In this document: piece after piece, positions 1,951-41,618 of the stretch
Layout: every line of letters begins with the position of its first letter
Position numbering within the stretch: position 1 is the first letter of the stretch
NCBI RefSeq assembly: GCF_001458735.1
Contig: NZ_CZQA01000010.1
Coordinates: 124,001 to 188,000, forward strand
Reading direction: 5' to 3'
Length of the DNA stretch: 64,000 nucleotides
Source: Candidatus Nitrospira nitrosa
Lineage (GTDB): Bacteria > Nitrospirota > Nitrospiria > Nitrospirales > Nitrospiraceae
Position numbers and translations under genes: made by a program
The notes under the pieces: model-generated
What the model was told of the DNA's origin: nothing
What the model saw: the letters and a program-made list of their open reading frames with translations, nothing else
Databases searched by the model: none

Positions 1951-2517
1951 ATGACACCGGTACGCAGTGTGACGCTCGTCAGCCTCTTTGGCCTTAGTGT
2001 TCTGCTGATGCATGGATGTTCTTCTAAATCTGGTTCCCTTATCGGGCAAGATCTACGGGGGCAGGAAGAACGGATCGCGGAACCAGTCATTAAAGAGATC
2101 CCTCCGACCGATGCCCACCTCACCGGGTCACGGACAAATCCTGCCATGCAGTCTGAACTGACAGCACGAAATGCCACTGGTTTGGAATCGAGCATGTTGG
2201 CCGACATCTTGTTTGAGTTTGATCAAGAGGCCATCCAAGGTGACGCCCTCCACGTGTTGGAGTCCGATGCAAAACAGCTGCAGCAAGACAGTATCACCCG
2301 CCTCATTTTGGAGGGACGCGGCGATGATATCGGTACATCCGCGTACAATCTCGTGCTGGGCGAGCGTCGAGCCAAGAACGTCAAGTCCTATCTCCGGCGA
2401 CTCGGTATCTCCATCGACGTCTCAACGACCAGTTATGGGAAAGACCGTCCGCTCTGCTTTGAACACAGCAGCGAATGTCGACAAAAAAATCGGAGTGTTC
2501 ATCTGGTCGTCCAATAG
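1951..2517 (+). CDS. OmpA-family lipoprotein, Pal-like
   Basis: This is a 188-residue outer-membrane lipoprotein. The N-terminus has a short charged region, a hydrophobic stretch and a lipobox (LLMHGC), so Cys23 would be lipidated. After a variable linker, residues 85-188 form an OmpA-C/Pal peptidoglycan-binding domain: ILFEFDQEAI, GDDIGTSAYNLVLGERRA, SYGKDRPLC and a final RSVHLVVQ. Pal family members tie the outer membrane to peptidoglycan and work with Tol. The usual EGHCDERG motif reads EGRGDDIG here, keeping the acidic residues. The ATG at 1951 follows AGAGG with good spacing. No tol genes are nearby, so this is probably a Pal paralogue rather than the main Pal. Confidence 0.85.
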   Translation: MTPVRSVTLVSLFGLSVLLMHGCSSKSGSLIGQDLRGQEERIAEPVIKEIPPTDAHLTGSRTNPAMQSELTARNATGLESSMLADILFEFDQEAIQGDALHVLESDAKQLQQDSITRLILEGRGDDIGTSAYNLVLGERRAKNVKSYLRRLGISIDVSTTSYGKDRPLCFEHSSECRQKNRSVHLVVQ

Positions 2518-2589
2518 GCCATAGAAATAGGACTGCGCCACGCTGGCAGACTCCCCCACGATTGTTACATATTGTTCACACTCCACTTC

Positions 2590-2618
2590 TTGACAGATCC
2601 CTAGTTGTTCATTAAGGT
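2590..2618 (+). promoter_or_regulatory. Candidate sigma-70 promoter for the Ppx/GppA gene
   Basis: A perfect TTGACA at 2590-2595 is followed after 17 bases by TAAGGT at 2613-2618, a weak -10. Transcription would begin near 2625, giving a leader of about 23 bases before the GTG at 2648. The -35 box is strong and the -10 box matches only 3 of 6 positions, so this is tentative. Confidence 0.3.
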
Positions 2619-2647
2619 CCCTACTCGTTTACGAGAGAGGTCGCGTC

Positions 2648-4201
2648 GTGTCCAAACTAGCCGTCATCGATATCGGAACGAACTCCATTCACATGGTGCT
2701 GGCAGAGGTGTTGCCTGATGCCAGCTTTAAAATTCTGGATCGGTTCAAGGACATAACCCGATTGGGCAACGGCGTGTTCGCCACGAAGCGTCTTTCCGAC
2801 GAGTCCCTGGCTCGTGCGATGACTGTACTGAAGACGTTGGTCACACTTGCCCGTAATAAGGGGTTTGAGCGAATCATCGCCGTCGCCACCAGTGCCGTAC
2901 GTGAATCTCAAAACGGCGGCGAGTTTGTGGCGATGATTCTGGAGCAGATTGGGCTGAGAGTACGTGTCATCAGCGGGGTAGAGGAAGCTCGGTTGATCTT
3001 CCTCGGAGTCAAGAACAGTATTGCGCTGCCGGACGGAGCGACATTGGTCGTCGATATCGGTGGCGGATCGGTCGAGCTGATCGTGGGGAATCGAGAGGGC
3101 CTCATGCACGGCACCAGTCTCAAACTGGGAGCCATCCGGCTCACCGAACAATGCCTCACAAAGAGCCCACCATCAGAATCCATGATGCGCGCGCTTGAAA
3201 CCGTCGTCACCACTCACCTCCGTGACGCCTTTGGATCCTTTAAGATGAAGAAGTTTCACTCCCTGGTCGCCACCTCAGGGATGGCGGGCAACGTGGGTGA
3301 GGTCATCCATCTCCGTCAAACGGGTCGCCCGCTGCCACAACATAACCTGGCCACCGTTCCCTTGAAGCATATCCGAAGCCTTGAAGCCGAGCTGGCTCGT
3401 TCATCGGTGAAAGACCGCTTGGCCATTCCAGGTCTGGATCCCAAACGCGTCGATACGCTGCTGCCCACGACTGTCGTGCTGCGATGCTTGCTCGAACTAT
3501 CCGGGCTACAAGAAATCACGCTTTGTGACAAAGCCATTCGGGAAGGAGTCATCTACGACTTTATCGCCCGTCATCGCGAAGGGTTGAAGGCCGAACAGGA
3601 TTTTCCCGACGTCCGCCGTCGGAATGTGATCGGTCTCGCTCGGCGCTGCCATGCCCCAGAAGCCCATTCGCTCCATGTCGCAAACTTGGCCTTGCAGTTG
3701 TTTGACCAGACCCAGCGAGAGCATCACCTCGGAGACCAGGCACGAACCTGGCTCGAATATGCCGCCATCCTGCACGACGTGGGGTATCACATCAATCCCA
3801 GACAACATCACAAGCACGCGTACTATCTTATTAAACACAGCGATCTCGGCGGATTGACCGCTGAAGATATCGACGTAATCGCTAATATCGCCCGCTATCA
3901 CCGACGCGCCTTGCCGACCGTCAAACATGAAGAATTCACGAGCCTGCCGCCCCGCCTCCAACGCACCGTCAAGATCCTTGCTTCGCTCTTGCGAATCGCA
4001 GATGGACTCGACCGGACCCATTTTTCACTGATTCAACGCCTGCAGGTCAAACTTGGGAAGCTGGTTGCTATCGACGTGCACCTTACGGGCGACGCAGAGA
4101 TGGAACTCTGGGCCGCGAAGAGCCGCGCTGATCTTTTTGAACAAGTCTTTCGCCGCCGTGTTCAATTCACTGGCGTACCGATAGAAGCCAGAAAATCATA
4201 A
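2648..4201 (+). CDS. Ppx/GppA-type phosphatase with C-terminal HD domain
   Basis: This is a 517-residue exopolyphosphatase / guanosine pentaphosphate phosphohydrolase-family protein. Residues 1-300 are the actin-like Ppx/GppA domain: AVIDIGTNSIHM for phosphate binding, VISGVEEARLIF with the family's catalytic glutamate, and VVDIGGGSVELIV. Residues 320-510 are an HD-type domain (HSLHVANLA, AAILHDVGYHI, ARYHRR, RIADGLDRTH), as in the long Ppx/GppA architecture. The family removes terminal phosphate from polyphosphate or converts pppGpp to ppGpp; the sequence does not decide between these. The GTG start at 2648 is preceded by GAGAGG. No polyphosphate kinase gene is adjacent. It is transcribed towards the exopolysaccharide locus and ends convergently with it. 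Confidence 0.9.
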   Translation: MSKLAVIDIGTNSIHMVLAEVLPDASFKILDRFKDITRLGNGVFATKRLSDESLARAMTVLKTLVTLARNKGFERIIAVATSAVRESQNGGEFVAMILEQIGLRVRVISGVEEARLIFLGVKNSIALPDGATLVVDIGGGSVELIVGNREGLMHGTSLKLGAIRLTEQCLTKSPPSESMMRALETVVTTHLRDAFGSFKMKKFHSLVATSGMAGNVGEVIHLRQTGRPLPQHNLATVPLKHIRSLEAELARSSVKDRLAIPGLDPKRVDTLLPTTVVLRCLLELSGLQEITLCDKAIREGVIYDFIARHREGLKAEQDFPDVRRRNVIGLARRCHAPEAHSLHVANLALQLFDQTQREHHLGDQARTWLEYAAILHDVGYHINPRQHHKHAYYLIKHSDLGGLTAEDIDVIANIARYHRRALPTVKHEEFTSLPPRLQRTVKILASLLRIADGLDRTHFSLIQRLQVKLGKLVAIDVHLTGDAEMELWAAKSRADLFEQVFRRRVQFTGVPIEARKS

Positions 4202-4522
4202 TAGAATCCATGCTGCTCACGACGGCACCTCACTGACGATATTCAATTTACTCCAGGCCATAAACTTTATCAGCCGACTCTCTCATCAAATCATCCCCCC
4301 TCTGAATACCGCAACGATTGTGTGAGCCGATCGAGATAGCTACAGGGGGGGGGCGCAGGATGTGGCTTCTGTTCCAGGCTGTAAGTGAACCTGGGAGCTA
4401 AATCCTTTTGCCATCAAGCCCGACATGGCATGTTGGGGCAATGACCCAATTGAAGTTCCCATGTCCAGACTGAGAACTCCTCATCTTGCATCAGTGAGGA
4501 TGTAATTACGAACGGCGAGCCA
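4202..4522. other. Convergent intergenic region with C6/G9 homopolymer tracts
   Basis: No gene is supported in these 321 bases between two convergent genes. A C6 run at 4295-4300 and a G9 run at 4345-4353 can pair (CCCCCC-T-CTG with CAG-GGGGGG) across a loop of about 40 bases, which could help end transcription. No clear T tract follows on either strand. Several short imperfect inverted repeats lie at 4420-4500. Confidence 0.4.
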
Positions 4523-4972
4523 CTAGGAGGTTTTTGTCGAGGCACTAATTCTTTTCGTGGCAACAGCCTGACGCCTGGTGCTCAAACGCTCAATCCGCTC
4601 TGTCACATCTCGATAGTCCGGATCTTCCCTTCGAATCCACCGGTAGGCTTCGAGGGTTTCCCCAACGCGCCCTAATGATTCCAGCGTGCGACCAAGGACA
4701 TAGAGAATCTGAACTGTTTCTTTTGATGAGGCCGTGGTTACATTCAACGCCTTTTGAAAAGCTGGGACAGCCTCCTCATAGCAACCAACCAGCTTATAGC
4801 AAAGTCCGATCTGCGCATACGCCTTTACCGCCAATGCCGTCTCGACGGCTGCCATTTCAAACTGGTCGATTGCCGCCTTATGCAGGCCGGCCTGTTTCAG
4901 CGCAAGTCCTCGCTCATAGCGCTCTTCGGGACTGACGGACGGATCGGAGAGATCCTGTGATGAATCAGACAT
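4523..4972 (-). CDS. Small TPR protein, paralogue of the C-terminal TPR domain of the neighbouring ATPase
   Basis: This is a soluble protein of about 149 residues made of tetratricopeptide-like helices, with no signal peptide. The middle (KAYAQIGLCYKLVG, then VLGRTLESLGRV) lines up closely with the C-terminal part of the upstream ExeA-type ATPase (KAYAQVGFCYVKMR, then CLGRSLESVGKV). It therefore looks like a duplicated, freed TPR module. The ATG at 4972 is chosen over a TTG at 4987 because it begins MSDSSQDLSD and has GAAGG upstream. It is the last gene of the exopolysaccharide locus, 76 bases after the ATPase stop. A protein-protein interaction role is inferred from the fold; the partner is unknown. 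Confidence 0.7.
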   Translation of the reverse strand: MSDSSQDLSDPSVSPEERYERGLALKQAGLHKAAIDQFEMAAVETALAVKAYAQIGLCYKLVGCYEEAVPAFQKALNVTTASSKETVQILYVLGRTLESLGRVGETLEAYRWIRREDPDYRDVTERIERLSTRRQAVATKRISASTKTS

Positions 4973-5048
4973 GAGCGCCTTCACCAATCACCGTGAATCT
5001 GAACATTCCACACAATGGGTTACGGGGAGTTGCATTACTGGAGGCGAG

Positions 5049-6455
5049 TCACTTCTGGCTGCCGATAAGAAATCGTTGAACATTGTCAATCATCCCGCTG
5101 ACCCAAGAAGGTCTTGCGTTGAACTGTTCATCGACTTTCCGTGGGGGCTTCGGAGACTCTTTCACTTGGGTGAGTCGATTCGCGACATCTCTGAAAGCGG
5201 GAGCGCTTTGATTGATCTGGGCATAGACCTCTCTCGCCTGATCGACCTTTCCAACGGATTCAAGACTGCGCCCCAAACAATAGAGGACATCCATCACTTC
5301 GTTCGGCCCGGCCATCGGATCCTCCAAGGCCGTCCGAAAGGCCTGGATCGCCGCCTGAGGCTCCCGCATCTTGACATAACAAAATCCGACCTGCGCATAG
5401 GCCTTGAACCATAGAGACTTGTCTCTGGCCGCGATATGAAAGAGTTCTATAGCCTCTATGAATTGCCCTCGCTCCTTTAAGGCTATTGCGCCTTGATAGT
5501 CCTCCTCCGAAGACTGGCTCAACGCAGCCTCAGACGGCGCGTCGGCAACCAAACCCGCTGAGAGTATGCGGCTGGGACCGTGGTGTTCCAAGGGTTCGTC
5601 GACAGCAGCGGCAAGCTGAGCTAACTCTTCTGTGGCGGCCAACGGGAGAATTCTTCCTTTGATCCGGTCAAGGGCGGCCTGAGCGACTAACTTTGCGGTG
5701 ATACTACTTGCTTGTTCAGCGTATCCATAGGTCAAGGTAATATCTGCCACCTGATTGATCAGTCGTGGATTCCCTTGGCTCAATCGATGCACAAGCCCAC
5801 AGGCCTGATCAGTAAAAAGCGCTGGACGCCCACCTGCGACCTGCAGCCGATGGCGAATAAAGTTCGTCGTATCGGTCTCTGACAATGGCTTGAGATGATA
5901 GTCGACGACGATCCGCTGTGCAAATTGAGTCATATCGATCCGTTGAAGCAATGTATAGAGATCGGGCTGACCCGAGAGGATGATCTGCAACTTTAATGTC
6001 TTCCCGTCGTTCATATTCGACAATAATCGCAACTCTTCAAGCAACTCGGCACCTAAACTTTGAGCTTCATCAATAACCAGAATGACACGTCGTGATCGTT
6101 TCGACTCTTGGGACAGAAACTCTGAAAAGAGGTGGTAGGCTTCGATGGGATCAAGTCGTTTGGTGCTTAACCCAAGAGATAACAGGATCCATGGTAAGAG
6201 CTGCTCGATATCGTACCGGGCATTCGTCACTAAGCCAATTTTGTGCCGGGTCCCATGCTCAGCCATGAGCTTCTGGAGAAGGGAGGTCTTCCCGACACCG
6301 GGATCGCCCGTGAGCACCATAAACGGGGCCTCACTCAGGATGCCATATTCCAATAGACTATAGGCCGCCTGATGCTCTGAGCCTTGATATAAAAAACTGC
6401 TGTCTGGCAGGAGAGCAAACGGTTTAGCCTTGAGCCGATAGAAGGATTCGTACAT
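5049..6455 (-). CDS. XrtA/PEP-CTERM locus ExeA/GspA-type ATPase with C-terminal TPR domain
   Basis: This is a 468-residue cytoplasmic AAA+ ATPase of the type found beside PEP-CTERM exosortase loci (the TIGR03015-like putative secretion ATPase). The start MYESFYRLKAKPFALLPD is typical of the ExeA family. The Walker A is GDPGVGKTS (K56, T57) and the Walker B is VILVIDEAQS (D129, E130). A winged-helix-like region follows to about residue 270. Residues 315-440 form TPR-type helices that the usual family members of about 270-350 residues lack. The family is thought to assist envelope export, but its exact role in exopolysaccharide loci is not settled. It lies 33 bases downstream of the tyrosine-kinase-like gene, in the same transcription unit. 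Confidence 0.88.
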   Translation of the reverse strand: MYESFYRLKAKPFALLPDSSFLYQGSEHQAAYSLLEYGILSEAPFMVLTGDPGVGKTSLLQKLMAEHGTRHKIGLVTNARYDIEQLLPWILLSLGLSTKRLDPIEAYHLFSEFLSQESKRSRRVILVIDEAQSLGAELLEELRLLSNMNDGKTLKLQIILSGQPDLYTLLQRIDMTQFAQRIVVDYHLKPLSETDTTNFIRHRLQVAGGRPALFTDQACGLVHRLSQGNPRLINQVADITLTYGYAEQASSITAKLVAQAALDRIKGRILPLAATEELAQLAAAVDEPLEHHGPSRILSAGLVADAPSEAALSQSSEEDYQGAIALKERGQFIEAIELFHIAARDKSLWFKAYAQVGFCYVKMREPQAAIQAFRTALEDPMAGPNEVMDVLYCLGRSLESVGKVDQAREVYAQINQSAPAFRDVANRLTQVKESPKPPRKVDEQFNARPSWVSGMIDNVQRFLIGSQK

Positions 6456-15072: not shown

Positions 15073-16647
15073 TCAGTCCGGTATAAATCTCGCCAACTCT
15101 CCCCCAATGGCTACGGCGAAATCCTGGAGACGTTGGTCGACCATGAATTCTGATTCACCGGGGCCGACGAGCGCAGCCAACCTGACCAGCGCTCCGTCGG
15201 TCCGCTGTCGAGAAAATGCGTCCCACAATAAGTACATCTTGACCAAGTATTCGCTTGTGAGATTACGCTCGCGTTGTTTAAACCAATACAAGACGATTTG
15301 CTTTTGACCGCCTTTCTGAATGACAACACGATTGGCCCTCAGCGGCTGCATGCTCATATCTGAGATTGGTAATTCCACTTGCGTTAATGACTCAATTTCC
15401 CACCCGCCGCCAGGCAGACAGCTTTGAGGTGAATGAGCCGACTGCCCTTTCCGCTGTGACCGATAGTAGGCGGCATAGAAATTTATCTGCTGCTGGGGAT
15501 TCAATCTATAATCCGCCAGAACATAATCATCAAACCGAAGGACATCGATATACTGCTGTTCGAGAGGAAATGGCTGACCGCGCCATCCGTTGATCTGCAT
15601 CGGAAAATCGACAAAGGCGGTTCGTTGAGGAGGACTTTCTTCACGATCCATAAGCAGAGTGCCAAGCAACGCACATGGCGCAAACAACGCCACACTGCAT
15701 AAGTAGGCGGGGCCGGGTGAGAAGATCCGGTTAGGGAGAACGCTCACCTCACGTTTCGCGACGGCCCCTACTTCCGGATTTCGCCATTTCAAATGCTCCC
15801 GCAACGATCTTCGAGGTGCTTCCGTGCCGAGTCTTCCTAACCACGCCATCTCGAGAATCAGTAACCCAAAACTCACCATGAAAATGACCCAGCCTTCAAA
15901 GAGATGGTAGAAGCCTTCTGCAGCACCTTTCCCATGCAGCTCTACCAACACGCCGATCATGCCAATCCGAAAACCATTAATCAGTATAGAGATGGGAATG
16001 GCTGAGAGGACTAAGATGACTCTCTTCCATATCTTGTCCTTAAAGAGATAGGCGCAGAGTAACGCAAGCGAGAGCAGGGGCAGCAGATACCGAATCCCAC
16101 TGCAGGCTTCCACGACCTGCAGCTGAACAGGCCCTAGATCGATGACATTGCCTTCACGAAATGCCATTACCCCAACAAGCTGGAGGCAGCCGACGCCGAG
16201 CGATGAGGACCACAATTGAAGTTGGCTTGAGAGATTCGCATAAACAAAGGTGGGAAGCGGTATCGCTGTCAGGAGATAGCCAAGGGGAAACGCAATCACC
16301 TTTGTTCCGTGAATCCCAATGAGCGTCATAGCCAGTCCGACCAGTACAATCCATAAAGAAAGATGTAGGACAAGAAAGAGGGTCGAGAGTTCCCCCACCA
16401 CATAAAGAAGGAGGCCACAACCGATAACGGCCAAGCCCCACCATGATTGCTTCGTTGGCATGTTGGACAACTGGTGTCGGGATTGCCATATAAGAACCCC
16501 TGAGATGAGAGGAACGAACAATCCGTGACTGTAGTCCTCGCTCTCCAGCCATCGGCTGATCAGAAACAGAAGACTATCGGCATATAGATAAAGCAAGAAT
16601 GAGACGATCAAGACCGATGAAACGAATAGAGCGCGTGTACTCGCCAT
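15073..16647 (-). CDS. xrtA: Exosortase (XrtA-type) fused to an EpsI domain
   Basis: This 524-residue inner-membrane protein is the transpeptidase-like enzyme that recognises PEP-CTERM tails. The N-terminal 270 residues have eight or so membrane helices and the three conserved residues of exosortases: Cys182 in VVEACSGIRYLL, Arg227 in INGFRIGMIG and His248 in GFYHLFEGW. After a cytoplasmic linker and one more helix, residues 345-520 form an EpsI domain (INGWRGQPF, DYVLADYRL, SCLPGGGWEIES). EpsI is often a separate gene. The flanking PrsT, export, chain-length, kinase and ATPase genes point to the XrtA type. The VPLP signature of the neighbouring target also occurs with XrtD, so the subclass is not certain. 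Confidence 0.88.
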   Translation of the reverse strand: MASTRALFVSSVLIVSFLLYLYADSLLFLISRWLESEDYSHGLFVPLISGVLIWQSRHQLSNMPTKQSWWGLAVIGCGLLLYVVGELSTLFLVLHLSLWIVLVGLAMTLIGIHGTKVIAFPLGYLLTAIPLPTFVYANLSSQLQLWSSSLGVGCLQLVGVMAFREGNVIDLGPVQLQVVEACSGIRYLLPLLSLALLCAYLFKDKIWKRVILVLSAIPISILINGFRIGMIGVLVELHGKGAAEGFYHLFEGWVIFMVSFGLLILEMAWLGRLGTEAPRRSLREHLKWRNPEVGAVAKREVSVLPNRIFSPGPAYLCSVALFAPCALLGTLLMDREESPPQRTAFVDFPMQINGWRGQPFPLEQQYIDVLRFDDYVLADYRLNPQQQINFYAAYYRSQRKGQSAHSPQSCLPGGGWEIESLTQVELPISDMSMQPLRANRVVIQKGGQKQIVLYWFKQRERNLTSEYLVKMYLLWDAFSRQRTDGALVRLAALVGPGESEFMVDQRLQDFAVAIGGELARFIPD

Positions 16648-35159: not shown

Positions 35160-37149
<1,990 letters not shown>

Positions 37150-37307
37150 GAGTGAGAACCTCCTCTTCTACCATCAGGCAAAGGGATTATTGCCAGCTTC
37201 GATGGACTAGTCTACCCACATCATGTAAATAAATCGTTAATAAAAGAATCTTGCGGCGACGAAGGCAGACCAGATACCATACTCCATCATCGAGAGCGGA
37301 GAGACTA

Positions 37308-38234
37308 TTGTCTGTGGCAACTGTTGCTCCTCAAAATGTTCGCCGCATCGGCTTGTTGCTGTGTATGGGGGTCTCCGGGTTACTCCTGGCACATGCCATC
37401 AATGCGTTTGTGGCCGATACCCTCTACGTTATTCCGGAACGGGCTGCGGGATCCGGGAATGGCCCCTCGGCAGGGACGCCGTTGATCGCGTCCTATTCGC
37501 CGACGCAGGCCATCGAGCATATTCGCTCCAGTGGTCTCTTTTTGCTTCCACAGACTCCTGAGAATGGATCGACCGGCGGCACCTCGTCTGGCCGACGAGG
37601 ATCCAGCGGTCCAGTAGTTCGAGCGTCCCTCGGGCTGGCTGGGAAGCTTCGCTTGATCGGCACGGTACTCGGTGATCAGCGTGGTGTCTTTGCCATCGTA
37701 GAAGAACTTTCCTCGAAACAGCAATCGTTGTACCACTTGCACGACTCCGTACTCGATCTCGGCGAAGTCACCGAGATCCGTCGGAAGGGAATTATCATCC
37801 GTCAAGGCAATGTCGAAGAGTTGTTGGAACTGGGGATCTCGGAAGGACTGGCCGCGCAGATGGGTACTCCTGGCGCTATTCCCGGTCCCCAGGCGACCGC
37901 CCCACCAATGTCGCCGCTTCGCAAAGTGGTGGATCGTCGTGAAGTGGAACAGGCCATGAATGACCTCCCGAAACTCCTCTCACAGGCACGAGCGGTACCG
38001 AATACGGTCAACGGCGCCATCAACGGGTTTCGTCTGGACTACATTGCACCCGCGAGCTTTTACGAAAAAATCGGGGTCCAGACTGGAGATGTGCTGCAGC
38101 GGGTCAATGGCGTCGATATTCGAGATCCAAGTACCATGTTGAATCTACTTCAGCAACTCAAAAACGAGCAGACCGTGAAACTCGACCTGGTCCGAAACAA
38201 CCAACGATCGACCATCACGTACGAACTTCGCTGA
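37308..38234 (+). CDS. gspC: Type II secretion system protein GspC
   Basis: This protein of about 308 residues is anchored in the inner membrane by one N-terminal helix (IGLLLCMGVSGLLLAHAINAFV). A periplasmic HR domain follows (KLRLIGTVLGDQRGVFAIVEE). A C-terminal PDZ-like domain ends the protein (GFRLDYIAPASFYEKIG, GDVLQRVNGVDIRDP). GspC links the inner-membrane platform to the secretin. A TTG at 37308 is chosen because GGAGAG lies at 37298-37303; the frame is also open from a TTG at 37251 with a poor ribosome site. It starts the T2SS cluster, divergent from gmd. No gspD follows: the next gene is gspE after 300 bases. Confidence 0.86.
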   Translation: MSVATVAPQNVRRIGLLLCMGVSGLLLAHAINAFVADTLYVIPERAAGSGNGPSAGTPLIASYSPTQAIEHIRSSGLFLLPQTPENGSTGGTSSGRRGSSGPVVRASLGLAGKLRLIGTVLGDQRGVFAIVEELSSKQQSLYHLHDSVLDLGEVTEIRRKGIIIRQGNVEELLELGISEGLAAQMGTPGAIPGPQATAPPMSPLRKVVDRREVEQAMNDLPKLLSQARAVPNTVNGAINGFRLDYIAPASFYEKIGVQTGDVLQRVNGVDIRDPSTMLNLLQQLKNEQTVKLDLVRNNQRSTITYELR

Positions 38235-38285
38235 TCCCACCGTTGGCAGTGGCACAATCTACGGAACGCAACAGCCGAAGATTTT

Positions 38286-38355
38286 CGAGTTTCTCACGTC
38301 AAGTTGCTGGTGCCTGCTCAATACCTGAGCTCCGAATCGTGAAACCTGAAACTCG
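38286..38355. repeat. Inverted-repeat element, GAAAC/GTTTC family, copy 1
   Basis: The left arm CGAGTTTCTCACG (38286-38298) and right arm CGTGAAACCTGAAACTCG (38338-38355) are complementary apart from a short gap, with a loop of about 40 bases. It fills much of the gspC-gspE gap. Related elements occur at 44867, 48073, 50639 and 52283. Confidence 0.6.
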
Positions 38356-38536
38356 ATGTGTCACGAAAGATCACTCTGAACGACAGGCACAAGGCCTCGA
38401 TTTTCCGTAACAATCTTTCCATGTTCTTGCCAGGTCGTCCTCAGGGAGAGTATCTTTACCCTTGGAAAGATAGTAAGACTCGATAGCGAACCCCCATCTC
38501 AAGTACGTGAGTTACGGGTAAGAGGTCAGAGAATAC

Positions 38537-40288
38537 GTGTCTGAACAAGACGAGCCCCAGCGACCCAATGTCAGTGTGACGCGGCCACGCCTGGGAGAGA
38601 TTCTCAGGGAAAAGTTTCACCTCTCGGAACTGAAGCTTGAGGAAGCGCTCGCCTACCAGCAGGAGAAGGGTGGTCGGTTGGGAGAAGTGCTGTTGCACCT
38701 GCGCATACTGCGGGAAGAACAGGTGCTGGAAGCCCTGGCCCAGCAATTCGACATGACCTGGATCCCCCACCTTGACAGCACACATGTCGATCATGAGGTC
38801 ATCAAGAAGGTTCCGATCGCCTTCTGCCGGCGCTACCGCGTTCTGCCGATGCGAGACGAAAACGGAGCCATTCTTACGGCATCGAGTGATCCGTTGGAAA
38901 CCGTCGCCATGGATGATCTTCGCTTGTTGTTGGGGAAACCGATCGCGCCGGTCTTGACCAGTACTGTCGCGCTCCTCGCGAGGCTCAATCGAGCCTACGA
39001 CGACATTGCGAATCCGGCAGGCGCCGAAGAAGTGATGGAGGATATCGCGGCGAACGAAAGCCTCGACCAGCTGGCGCACGAACTCGACGAGCCGCAAGAT
39101 CTGCTCGATGCGACCGACGAGGCCCCGATCATCCGACTCGTCAACTCGGTCCTATTCCAGGCGGTTCGGCAACGAGCCAGTGACATCCACTTCGAATCGT
39201 TCGAACGGGGGTTGGTGGTCCGCTATCGTATCGACGGCGTCCTCTACCCGGTCCTCACACCGCCCAAACACTTGCAAGCCAGCATCATCGCACGCCTCAA
39301 GATCATGGCCGGATTGAATATTGCCGAGAAACGGCTGCCGCAGGACGGTCGGTTCGCGATTCGAACGGCCGGAAAGGACGTCGATCTCCGCGTGTCTGTC
39401 CTCCCCACCTCGCATGGTGAGCGGGTTGTGTTGCGCTTACTGGAAAAGGAGAATCGTCTACTGAATCTCTCTGAGATGGGGTTTTCCAAAGACCGTCTGG
39501 TGGTCATTCACCAGCTCATCCAACTGGCACACGGGATCATACTCGTCACCGGCCCAACGGGAAGCGGGAAAACAACCACCCTCTATGCCGCACTGACCCA
39601 CATTAACTCGCCGGACAAGAACATCATCACCGTTGAGGATCCGGTCGAATACCAGCTGCTTGGCGTCGGGCAAATGCAGGTCAACCCGAAAATCAATCTC
39701 ACGTTTGCCGCCGGGCTACGGTCGATTCTTCGACAGGATCCTGATGTGATCATGATCGGGGAAATCCGCGACCGTGAAACGGCGGAGATCGCCATCCACG
39801 CGTCACTCACCGGACATTTGGTCTTCTCGACACTCCATACGAACGACGCCGCGAGCGCCGCCACACGGCTTATTGACATGGGGATTGAGCCCTTTCTGGT
39901 CGCCTCATCGGTCGTCGCCGTGCTGGCGCAACGGTTACTCAGACGGATTTGTCCCGACTGCAAGCGCCCCTATCGGGCCAGTGAAGACGAACTGGGTCGG
40001 CTGGACTTACCGCCTGGTTCCGCAGTGACACTGTATCGAGGAGCCGGCTGCGCCGCCTGTTCCCAAACCGGCTATCGCGGACGTATCGGCATCTTTGAAC
40101 TGATGGTATTGGACGATGACATTCGACGACTCATCGGCGGCAAGGCGGACTCGACTGCCATCAAACAGACAGCGATCGCAAAAGGCATGGTGACATTGAA
40201 GCAGGAAGGTGCGGAGCGAGTCATCCAGGGCCAGACCACATTGGAAGAAGTCATGCGGATCACCCAACAAGAGATCGACGTAGACTGA
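38537..40288 (+). CDS. gspE: Type II secretion ATPase GspE with MshEN c-di-GMP-binding domain
   Basis: This 583-residue cytoplasmic ATPase powers pseudopilus assembly. Residues 18-41 and 47-70 match the 24-residue MshEN motif (RLGxxL, then L, L and Q at motif positions 17, 21 and 24), separated by exactly five residues. The second copy has V for the first late L. The MshEN family binds c-di-GMP through this double motif. The rest is classical: Walker A GPTGSGKTTTLY (K345), Walker B DPDVIMIGEIRD (401-412), and a four-cysteine zinc site (CPDC at 472-475, CAAC at 505-508). The GTG start at 38537 follows AGAGG. The long linker at 150-200 is acidic. Confidence 0.93.
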   Translation: MSEQDEPQRPNVSVTRPRLGEILREKFHLSELKLEEALAYQQEKGGRLGEVLLHLRILREEQVLEALAQQFDMTWIPHLDSTHVDHEVIKKVPIAFCRRYRVLPMRDENGAILTASSDPLETVAMDDLRLLLGKPIAPVLTSTVALLARLNRAYDDIANPAGAEEVMEDIAANESLDQLAHELDEPQDLLDATDEAPIIRLVNSVLFQAVRQRASDIHFESFERGLVVRYRIDGVLYPVLTPPKHLQASIIARLKIMAGLNIAEKRLPQDGRFAIRTAGKDVDLRVSVLPTSHGERVVLRLLEKENRLLNLSEMGFSKDRLVVIHQLIQLAHGIILVTGPTGSGKTTTLYAALTHINSPDKNIITVEDPVEYQLLGVGQMQVNPKINLTFAAGLRSILRQDPDVIMIGEIRDRETAEIAIHASLTGHLVFSTLHTNDAASAATRLIDMGIEPFLVASSVVAVLAQRLLRRICPDCKRPYRASEDELGRLDLPPGSAVTLYRGAGCAACSQTGYRGRIGIFELMVLDDDIRRLIGGKADSTAIKQTAIAKGMVTLKQEGAERVIQGQTTLEEVMRITQQEIDVD

Positions 40289-40379
40289 TGCAATTCTATT
40301 TCTCCATCCCTCACCACGTCCGGTCCCACCAGCATCAGGCTGCATCGCCGGCTTGGGTCGTTCCTGAAATCGGTTGATC

Positions 40380-41618
40380 ATGCCCGTCTACCAATACCAG
40401 GGATACCGCAGTGACGGGGGAACAGCGACTGGAATCATCGACGCTGAAAACGTCAAAGTCGCGCGGTTGAAACTTCGCAAAGAGGGTGTCTACCCAACCG
40501 ATGTCGTAGAGCAGGGACAAACGTCCAGTCGAACAGCATCCACAACCCGCACCAAACCCTCACGGGTCATCGGACGAACATCGGTACTCACGGCCAACGA
40601 TCTATCCCTGCTCACTAGGCAGTTTGCCACGCTGCTCGTCGCTGGTTTACCGCTGGTCGATGCCCTTGGCGTACTCGTCGATCAGGCCGAAAAGAAACCG
40701 ATCAAGTCCCTGCTCGCCGACATCAGGGAGCAAGTCCGTGGGGGAAAAGCGTTGAGCGTCGTCTTGGAAACGTACGACAAGGATTTTTCCCCTATCTATG
40801 TCCATATGGTTCGAGCCGGTGAAGCGAGTGGGGCACTCGATCAGATTTTATTCAGACTGGCGGAGTTTCTTGAAAAACAGCAAGCCCTCCGAACCAAAGT
40901 GACCAATGCGATGCTCTACCCGGTGATCATGTTGGTCATCGGAACCGTCATCCTATTTTTCCTCATTACCTTCGTCGTTCCCAAGATCACGCAGGTCTTT
41001 GCCCAACAAAAACAGGCTTTGCCATGGCCGACCGTCGCCCTCATGTCGACCAGCCAGGTTTTCTCTGATTATTGGATGGTGTTGATCGGGCTGGTTCTCG
41101 CCGGCATCTATGGAATTCGACAATTTATCCGCACGGAACGAGGCCGCATGGTGGTGGACCGCCTGACATTGAAGCTCCCGTTGATCGGAGACGTCGCACG
41201 GATGGTCTCCATCTCCCGACTGACAAGCACGTTGTCCACAATGTTGGGAAGCGGTGTGCAGTTGCTCGATGCCTTGGATGTCTCCAAGCGGGTCATGAAC
41301 AATCGAGTGCTTGAGGAAACGGTTGAAAGCGCCAGGCAGAATATCCGCGAGGGTGAGACGATCGCTGATCCACTGAAGCGCAGCGGAGAATTCCCCGCTC
41401 TCGTCACGCACATGATCGCCGTCGGAGAAAAAAGCGGTGAGATGGAGGAGATGTTACGCCGGGTGAGCCACATCTATGACGGCGAAGTCGAACGGGTCAT
41501 TACACGGTTGACCTCACTGATGGAACCGATCATGATTCTCGTGATGGGCGTGATCGTATTTTTCATCGTCGTTGCGATACTATTACCCATCTTTGAGATG
41601 GGCCAAATGGTCCATTAA
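40380..41618 (+). CDS. gspF: Type II secretion platform protein GspF
   Basis: This 412-residue polytopic inner-membrane platform protein has two T2SSF domains. The N-terminus MPVYQYQGYRSDGG is family-typical. The first domain contains LLTRQFATLLVAGLPLVDAL and GEASGALDQILFRLAEFLE, with membrane helices near 170-195 and 220-240. The second contains RLTSTLSTMLGSGVQLLDAL and AVGEKSGEMEEMLRRVSHIYD, with a last helix near 385-405. It contacts GspE and GspL. An ATG at 40380 is used, although the frame opens with TTG at 40374. It follows gspE by 91 bases. Confidence 0.94.
   Translation: MPVYQYQGYRSDGGTATGIIDAENVKVARLKLRKEGVYPTDVVEQGQTSSRTASTTRTKPSRVIGRTSVLTANDLSLLTRQFATLLVAGLPLVDALGVLVDQAEKKPIKSLLADIREQVRGGKALSVVLETYDKDFSPIYVHMVRAGEASGALDQILFRLAEFLEKQQALRTKVTNAMLYPVIMLVIGTVILFFLITFVVPKITQVFAQQKQALPWPTVALMSTSQVFSDYWMVLIGLVLAGIYGIRQFIRTERGRMVVDRLTLKLPLIGDVARMVSISRLTSTLSTMLGSGVQLLDALDVSKRVMNNRVLEETVESARQNIREGETIADPLKRSGEFPALVTHMIAVGEKSGEMEEMLRRVSHIYDGEVERVITRLTSLMEPIMILVMGVIVFFIVVAILLPIFEMGQMVH

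Follow-up and report, generated by a model that had tools for sequence, protein, structure and literature searches.

Candidatus Nitrospira nitrosa encodes, beside an exosortase locus, a small stand-alone TPR protein directly downstream of an ATPase that itself ends in a similar TPR module. This raises the question of whether the free TPR gene is a copy of its neighbor's C-terminal domain or a gene with a separate history. A preliminary description of the locus favored the first reading, and proposed that the released copy competes for, or bridges to, the partner of the ATPase. We examined the gene within a window of 64,000 nucleotides (the whole stretch of DNA analyzed, to which coordinates refer unless another locus is named) and in genomes of the same family. 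We place a probability of roughly 0.6 on the reading that the free TPR is an old, independently kept paralogue, likely the released tail of a type-B-like ATPase, that docks another partner.

The free TPR protein and its likeness to the neighboring ATPase

The free TPR gene lies at 4523..4972 on the minus strand and encodes a protein of 149 residues with no C-terminal tail. The open reading frame as listed begins with a TTG at 4987 (154 residues); the ATG at 4972 is the likelier start judging from the sequence, since GGTGAAGG lies five bases ahead of it and several close orthologues start with MSDS or a variant. The protein is placed among TPR proteins by its match to Pfam TPR_1 (49.9 bits, gathering cut-off 27.8), and an AlphaFold2 model with a pLDDT of 89 consists of three TPRs and a cap helix, with helices at residues 15-27, 31-41, 45-61, 65-76, 83-99, 103-116 and 123-145. 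Fold and structure searches with this model returned designed and generic TPRs and nothing diagnostic, and no paper on this TPR family was found in the open-access literature searched.

The gene is under purifying selection, with dN/dS of 0.04-0.17 in nine of ten pairs (one pair is undefined and several have saturated dS), which rules out a decaying pseudogene. The free copy changes more slowly than the fused TPR in all seven pairs that include the window; three other pairs show the reverse (free dN of 0.050, 0.113 and 0.094 vs fused dN of 0.035, 0.075 and 0.091), and we dropped the idea that the free form generally changes more slowly. Spread on plasmids was likewise rejected, as a tblastn search of a plasmid collection with the free TPR gave no match at 1e-5. 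In one genome (G114, L061:5082-5627) the free TPR gene is divided between two open reading frames by an internal stop, which is either a pseudogene or an assembly error.

The neighboring ATPase, here called type A, is encoded at 5049..6455 on the same minus strand, with 76 nt between its gene and that of the free TPR downstream. Its 468 residues comprise an AAA domain (5661..6455, minus strand; residues 1-265, delimited by the TIGR03015 match to residues 1-259 and by AlphaFold2), a linker, a TPR module (5160..5531, minus strand; residues 309-432, delimited by the AlphaFold2 helices from 309-328 to 424-432 and by BLASTP) and a tail with an SWV segment (5052..5156, minus strand; residues 434-468). 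In the AlphaFold2 model the AAA domain is followed by the linker, which has pLDDT below 50 at residues 288-311, by the same TPR fold as in the free protein and by a low-confidence tail helix at 452-463. The ATPase scores 83.2 bits against Pfam AAA_22. Against TIGR03015, the model of the XrtA/PEP-CTERM system-associated ATPase, it scores 233.5 bits (E 2.8e-69), below the cut-off of 324.5, so that it falls outside that family as defined. Its AAA domain nevertheless matches nearly the full profile (positions 1-261 of 269, on residues 1-259 of 468), and the TPR module and tail lie beyond the model; the preliminary description was thus right that this ATPase is longer than typical. Fold and structure searches with the ATPase found replication-type AAA proteins and nothing diagnostic, and no paper on the function of exosortase-locus ATPases was found among titles and abstract beginnings in the open-access literature.

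Beyond the ATPase the locus encodes a tyrosine kinase and a chain-length protein, the kind of surroundings known for TIGR03015 proteins, followed by a TIGR03016-like outer-membrane protein, an export protein, PrsT, a WecA-like transferase and an exosortase. The locus had been described as an XrtA locus, but against NCBIfam its exosortase comes out as XrtD-like, at 544.7 bits over a cut-off of 400, and narrowly misses XrtA (203.5 bits, cut-off 208). This exosortase, at 15073-16647, scores as the VPLPA-CTERM type and carries a C-terminal DUF3485/EpsI domain. The genome holds four exosortase matches, and a second, paralogous exosortase exopolysaccharide locus (G000:C1:1656000-1675999, L041) with exosortase, WecA, PrsT, export, outer-membrane, chain-length, kinase and TPR-ATPase genes at 38-63% identity, depending on the gene.

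The free TPR and the C-terminal module of the ATPase align by BLASTP over 116 residues without gaps (free residues 12-127, ATPase residues 313-428), with 48 identical positions (41%), 89 bits and an E of 6e-26. The two motifs quoted in the preliminary description, beginning KAYAQ and LGR, do occur in both proteins at equal spacing, 43 residues apart in each. A search of the genome itself with the free TPR gave two close matches: the tail of the adjacent ATPase (E 1.7e-22) and that of another ATPase, encoded in the second exosortase locus (C1:1665138-1666454; E 3.9e-19). The next TPR came only at E 0.007. The likeness is therefore closer than that among TPR proteins at large, and the gap between 3.9e-19 and 0.007 excludes generic TPR similarity as its sole basis. 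Fused TPR modules also occur on family ATPases of other types (types A, B, C and x are distinguished here) and on ATPases of two other families. Among the matches listed, most ATPase matches extend into the TPR region; the module set analyzed below was chosen by TPR match, and gives no measure of how general the fusion is.

Phylogeny of the TPR modules

A search of 175 genomes of the family gave matches at E 1e-6 or better in 146, which fall into free TPRs, ATPase tails of several types and TPR-PilZ proteins. The 157 module rows found were reduced to 136 by removal of duplicates and then to the 97 used for the tree, which leaves out L019, a row at a contig edge, the two fragments of the split free gene in L061 and every row from 18 near-duplicate loci of the window clade. 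These 97 rows comprise 28 type-A tails, 34 free TPRs, eight type-C and seven type-B modules, five PilZ-type modules, three ATPx, three ATPout and nine SgmX-like rows, the last serving as outgroup.

The phylogeny obtained unites all free TPRs, that of the window included, with the type-B tails and the PilZ-type modules in a clade (98/97) that contains no type-A tail. Free TPRs located beside a type-A ATPase form a single clade (100/98) nested among free TPRs from other sites. Type-A tails are not monophyletic in this tree, as five rows of genus g14 stand apart with weak support around them, and branches are long for several ATPase and SgmX-like rows. When the 14 adjacent free TPRs were constrained to group with the type-A tails of their own 14 loci, the log-likelihood fell by 150.5 (p-AU 1e-45), so that tree and AU test both reject recent local duplication from the adjacent ATPase. 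An older release from the type-A lineage was rejected as well, by holding all free TPRs and PilZ-type modules with all type-A tails (difference 34.0, p 0.006), a grouping that was chosen after inspection of the tree. Also against local duplication, free orthologues at other sites are 57-67% identical to the window free TPR vs 41% for the neighbor's tail. The tree of AAA domains, which includes one wrong-frame row (L113_MSHM_1696) with an end branch of 10, recovers types A and B as separate clades (92/99 and 100/100). On these sequences, the free TPR and the adjacent ATPase tail are paralogues that split before the genera with free TPRs diverged. What stands of the duplicate reading is homology beyond generic TPR similarity and a probable descent from an ATPase tail; the adjacent ATPase as the donor does not.

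A short motif separates the same groups. The pattern W[IL]R[RK]E, which in the window free TPR is WIRRE (4625..4639, minus strand; residues 112-116), is typical of free TPRs (34 of 34) and type-B tails (five of seven), occurs in one of five PilZ-type modules, and is absent from all 28 type-A, eight type-C, three ATPx, three ATPout and nine SgmX-like rows (0 of 51). A looser form of the motif is found in 34 of 34 free, five of seven type-B and four of five PilZ-type modules, and again in none of the 51 others. The ends of the proteins are less decisive. An SW-type tail pattern is present in 23 of 28 type-A, all seven type-B, seven of eight type-C, all three ATPout and one of three ATPx rows, as well as in three of 20 non-adjacent free TPRs; it is found in none of the 14 adjacent free TPRs, five PilZ-type or nine SgmX-like rows. 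Two free TPRs (L044 and L087) end in SWVGG, resembling the ATPase tails SWVSG and SWVAQ, and a W-containing end segment was recognized by eye in 13 of the 20 non-adjacent free TPRs.

Origin of the free gene and the type-B ATPases

The fused modules closest to the free TPR are the tails of type B, a second kind of exosortase-locus ATPase seen here in just two other genera. Within the genus g14, a type-B ATPase follows the type-A ATPase on the ppx side, with one oxidoreductase gene between them (L052 and L081, the type-B copy of L081 being interrupted), and it thereby occupies the position that the free TPR has in the window. The tandem pairs (L052:2791-7943 and L081:3322-8497) surround an alcohol dehydrogenase/GFO-type oxidoreductase gene, and this gene lies in pieces beside a lone type-B ATPase at L082:7335-9862. 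Among the matches listed, type B also occurs without type A (L051, L053, L058, L082 and L083) and type A without type B (L084-L086). Type-B ATPases were recorded in 11 genomes (ten of g14 and one of g9; AAA identity was inspected in seven, and the other four were assigned by size and score). Free TPRs were recorded in 91 of the 175 family genomes, all from g1, g5, g15 and g17, counting matches at E 5.1e-38 or better in open frames of up to 250 residues, a count that weaker or fragmentary copies escape. In these lists, compiled by hand from the matches listed, the two sets do not overlap. The 44 named loci with close relatives are titled Nitrospira, Nitrospiraceae or Nitrospirae, with the single exception of a Nitrosospira.

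The free gene most likely derives, judging from the trees and these positions, from the tail of a type-B-like ATPase: an ancestral ATPase of this kind would have lost its AAA part, and its tail would have stayed as a free gene. The reverse step, refusion of a free TPR to an AAA domain, is possible, since the inner order of type-B, PilZ-type and free modules has low support (87/66; a grouping of free TPRs with type B to the exclusion of PilZ-type modules is not rejected, p 0.225). Release is favored because AAA fusion is the state of the ATPase modules farther out in the tree, though not of the SgmX-like outgroup; the tails favor it only a little. For the same reasons we consider it possible but doubtful that a single-domain free TPR came first, with type-B ATPases and TPR-PilZ proteins arising from it by fusion to AAA and PilZ. 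The wide occurrence of the free form, the low support for the branching order and the small number of free TPRs with an ATPase-like tail would suit such an origin, but the AAA-fused state of the distant modules (types A, C and x, and those of two other ATPase families, the SgmX-like outgroup excepted) and the SWVGG ends argue for descent from an ATPase.

Gene order around the free TPR

The window reads, in order, aldo-keto reductase, Pal/OmpA-type gene, ppx, free TPR, ATPase, exopolysaccharide block, wecB, fcl, gmd, gspC, gspE and gspF, where fcl, gmd, wecB and the gsp genes are names that we presume from reading the sequences. The Pal/OmpA-type gene and ppx (1951..4201, plus strand) flank the free TPR side, and fcl and gmd (minus strand) with gspC, gspE and gspF (plus strand) lie on the far side of the block (35160..41618). 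The aldo-keto-reductase-like gene at 37-1917 corresponds to residues 601-1226 of a 1,226-residue protein in the close relative G083, and is probably cut by the window edge.

Neighborhoods of free TPRs at other sites indicate which of these genes are its usual company. Among 20 non-adjacent free-TPR loci, 19 contain fcl, gmd or gsp genes and seven contain the aldo-keto reductase. In L146, L156 and L151 (the last sharing a contig with L174), the free TPR is directly flanked on one side by gsp genes, in some cases together with gmd-fcl, and on the other by ppx, and exopolysaccharide genes are absent. In G091 and G048, about 30 kb of one contig separate it from the type-A ATPase, and it lies beside fcl and gmd, at the block's other end. 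No AAA remnant was detected among open reading frames of at least 80 residues beside free TPRs outside the adjacent clade, a point against release from an ATPase. The adjacency to the ATPase is secondary, and arises because in the window clade the exopolysaccharide block sits between the free TPR and fcl.

Adjacency itself is well conserved: in 29 of the 30 best loci the free TPR lies 18-277 nt downstream of the ATPase on the same strand, the 30th ending at a contig edge, and it holds in 33 of the 44 named loci, a set that shares members with the best 30. The adjacent free TPRs form a clade of 33 rows (100/99), plus that of G080, and the arrangement is old within one Nitrospira clade. Such conservation might mean a functional link in the window clade.

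Distribution of the free TPR and the type-A ATPase

The free TPR is separable from, and independent of, both the exosortase and the type-A ATPase. Among the matches listed, where ATPases were typed by hand on identity and score, 62 of the 91 free-TPR genomes also hold a type-A ATPase, fragmentary in some cases, and it is missing from the other 29; 16 have no ATPase of type A, B, C or x, one of these (G052) having a 33%-identical AAA match. An AAA search at E 1e-5 in six of these 16 gave no match in G113, G063, G051 and G133, a 26-bit match in G070 and a match of 33% identity in G142. An exosortase was found in five of ten genomes searched and in none of G070, G063, G133, G142 and G007, all of which carry the free TPR; G113 and G051 have the free TPR and one exosortase each.

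Conversely, type A occurs among the matches listed in 82 genomes, and the free TPR is missing from 20 of these, 14 of which belong to g14. Outside g14 these are G083, G115, G141, G144, G148 and G153; single absences carry some risk, most genomes in these counts being draft assemblies, and we inspected G083 as well as G115, which is a single contig. The stretch 4332..4987, containing the entire free TPR gene, is cleanly missing by blastn from G083, where the flanks are contiguous (L172 9288-9405 and 9406-9518 correspond to window 4217-4331 and 4988-5100); the ATPase, 97% identical in its AAA part, and the neighboring exopolysaccharide genes are kept. The opposite state is seen in G080, where the free TPR is intact and the type-A ATPase next to it is missing its N-terminal 150 residues and is interrupted by a stop. 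Kinase and chain-length genes were not found in the 3.4 kb up to the contig end in G080, and another ATPase is encoded on another contig. Competing for, or bridging to, the partner of the ATPase is weakened as a function by these genomes, since the free TPR persists in genomes that lack this ATPase or any exosortase, and a close relative has the ATPase without the free TPR.

A related arrangement exists in the wider phylum. Locus L165 (6718-9969) encodes an 809-residue TPR protein with a related C-terminal module, which scores 220.8 bits against SgmX, and directly downstream an AAA gene scoring 197.4 bits against TIGR03015, both scores being below cut-off; the remaining neighbors look unrelated. 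Long TPR proteins that end in a related module, each with an AAA gene (272-284 residues) directly downstream, are also encoded in L103, L105, L107, L109, L111 and L113 (these six loci are among the nine outgroup rows), as well as in L116. These pairs span several Nitrospirota families and include one genome of the same family; L106, L108 and L114, for which the stretches are short, showed no downstream AAA gene. These pairs, together with the conserved adjacency and possible co-transcription, could be taken as a sign that the free TPR of the window clade, though of separate origin, now serves the type-A ATPase as a functional subunit or regulator. We hold this to be unlikely, given the clean loss in G083, the absence in G115 and the intact free TPR beside a broken ATPase in G080. 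Recent local duplication of the adjacent type-A domain, yielding a copy that competes for or bridges to the same partner, is highly improbable: it would account for the same-strand adjacency, the shared motifs and the identity to the neighbor's tail, but it conflicts with the AU test, the closer orthologues at other sites, the lack of WIRRE in every type-A tail and the occurrence of each gene without the other.

Possible mode of action and relation to known systems

An old, independently kept free TPR is probably a small cytoplasmic three-TPR adaptor of an old Nitrospiraceae family. Its most conserved part suggests where it may bind: 41 positions are invariant among 23 aligned free TPRs, and 27 of them fall within residues 87-131 (TPR3 and the cap helix), including Y110, R111, W112, R114, R115 and E116 as well as R121, D122, V123, R126 and I127. 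The first of these stretches (Y110-E116) is not common to type-A tails and the second (R121-I127) is partly common. We infer both the direction of the change (release, not refusion) and the following mode of action. The free TPR would dock a partner through the conserved surface of TPR3 and cap helix (YRWIRRE...RDV..RI..LS), and this partner probably differs, at least in part, from that of the type-A ATPase, because the WIRRE part of the surface is not common to type-A tails. Candidates would be the gsp products (type II secretion or pilus-like), the gmd-fcl products or other envelope and cell-surface machinery; the partner may belong to the gsp or cell-surface machinery encoded by the gene's usual neighbors.

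The SgmX protein of type IV pilus formation (NF052243) offers an analogy. The free TPR weakly matches its C-terminal TPRs (36.3 bits), and no protein tested reached the cut-off of 1800, two Nitrospirota relatives scoring 220.8 and 112.7 bits. SgmX, of 1,060 residues, helps the polar localization of the pilus ATPase PilB in Myxococcus (PMC7519303). As SgmX helps to place PilB, a docking role is plausible by analogy for the free TPR. A reading of the outgroup as MshN/MshM was set aside for SgmX-like on the NCBIfam results for L165 and for the window genome's own copy (L167); the remaining outgroup rows are called SgmX-like by arrangement alone.

The magnetosome TPR protein MamA (NF040959) is among the natural TPR matches in solved structures (E 2.8e-11); at 33.5 bits in NCBIfam against a cut-off of 200, the likeness is one of generic TPR similarity. 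The TPR-PilZ proteins of Nitrospiraceae are closer relatives: their N-terminal module belongs to the free-TPR clade and is 47-52% identical to the free TPR (five rows). They differ in carrying a C-terminal PilZ domain (PF07238, 47.1 bits in L045), which is lacking in the L059 row. Such fusions are encoded at L045:7554-8513, L047:6960-7949, L057:7082-8023 and L088:6306-7403, and in the window genome no TPR-PilZ module was seen before E 0.007 in the free-TPR search.

A more tentative idea, which we think rather improbable, is that one TPR docking module has been passed around Nitrospirota as a common plug for different controllers on one envelope export or pilus-like machine. The plug would act in trans with a stand-alone AAA ATPase (SgmX-like), be fused to the exosortase-locus AAA domain, be fused to PilZ (c-di-GMP-type), or be free; the controllers would be an ATP motor, PilZ or none, the free form being a constitutive adaptor.

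The free TPR is an ordinary kind of protein; its history is neat, and the natural absences among genomes are useful. Adjacent look-alike domains suggest recent duplication, but trees, synteny and gene absences show here an old paralogue that has been kept in its own right. The genomes with the ATPase and without the free TPR (G083 and G115), and those with the free TPR and without such an ATPase (G063, G133, G113 and G051), allow the roles of the ATPase's TPR extension and of the free TPR to be tested apart from each other. Were the module a common docking plug, its partner would indicate what the exosortase-locus ATPase acts on.
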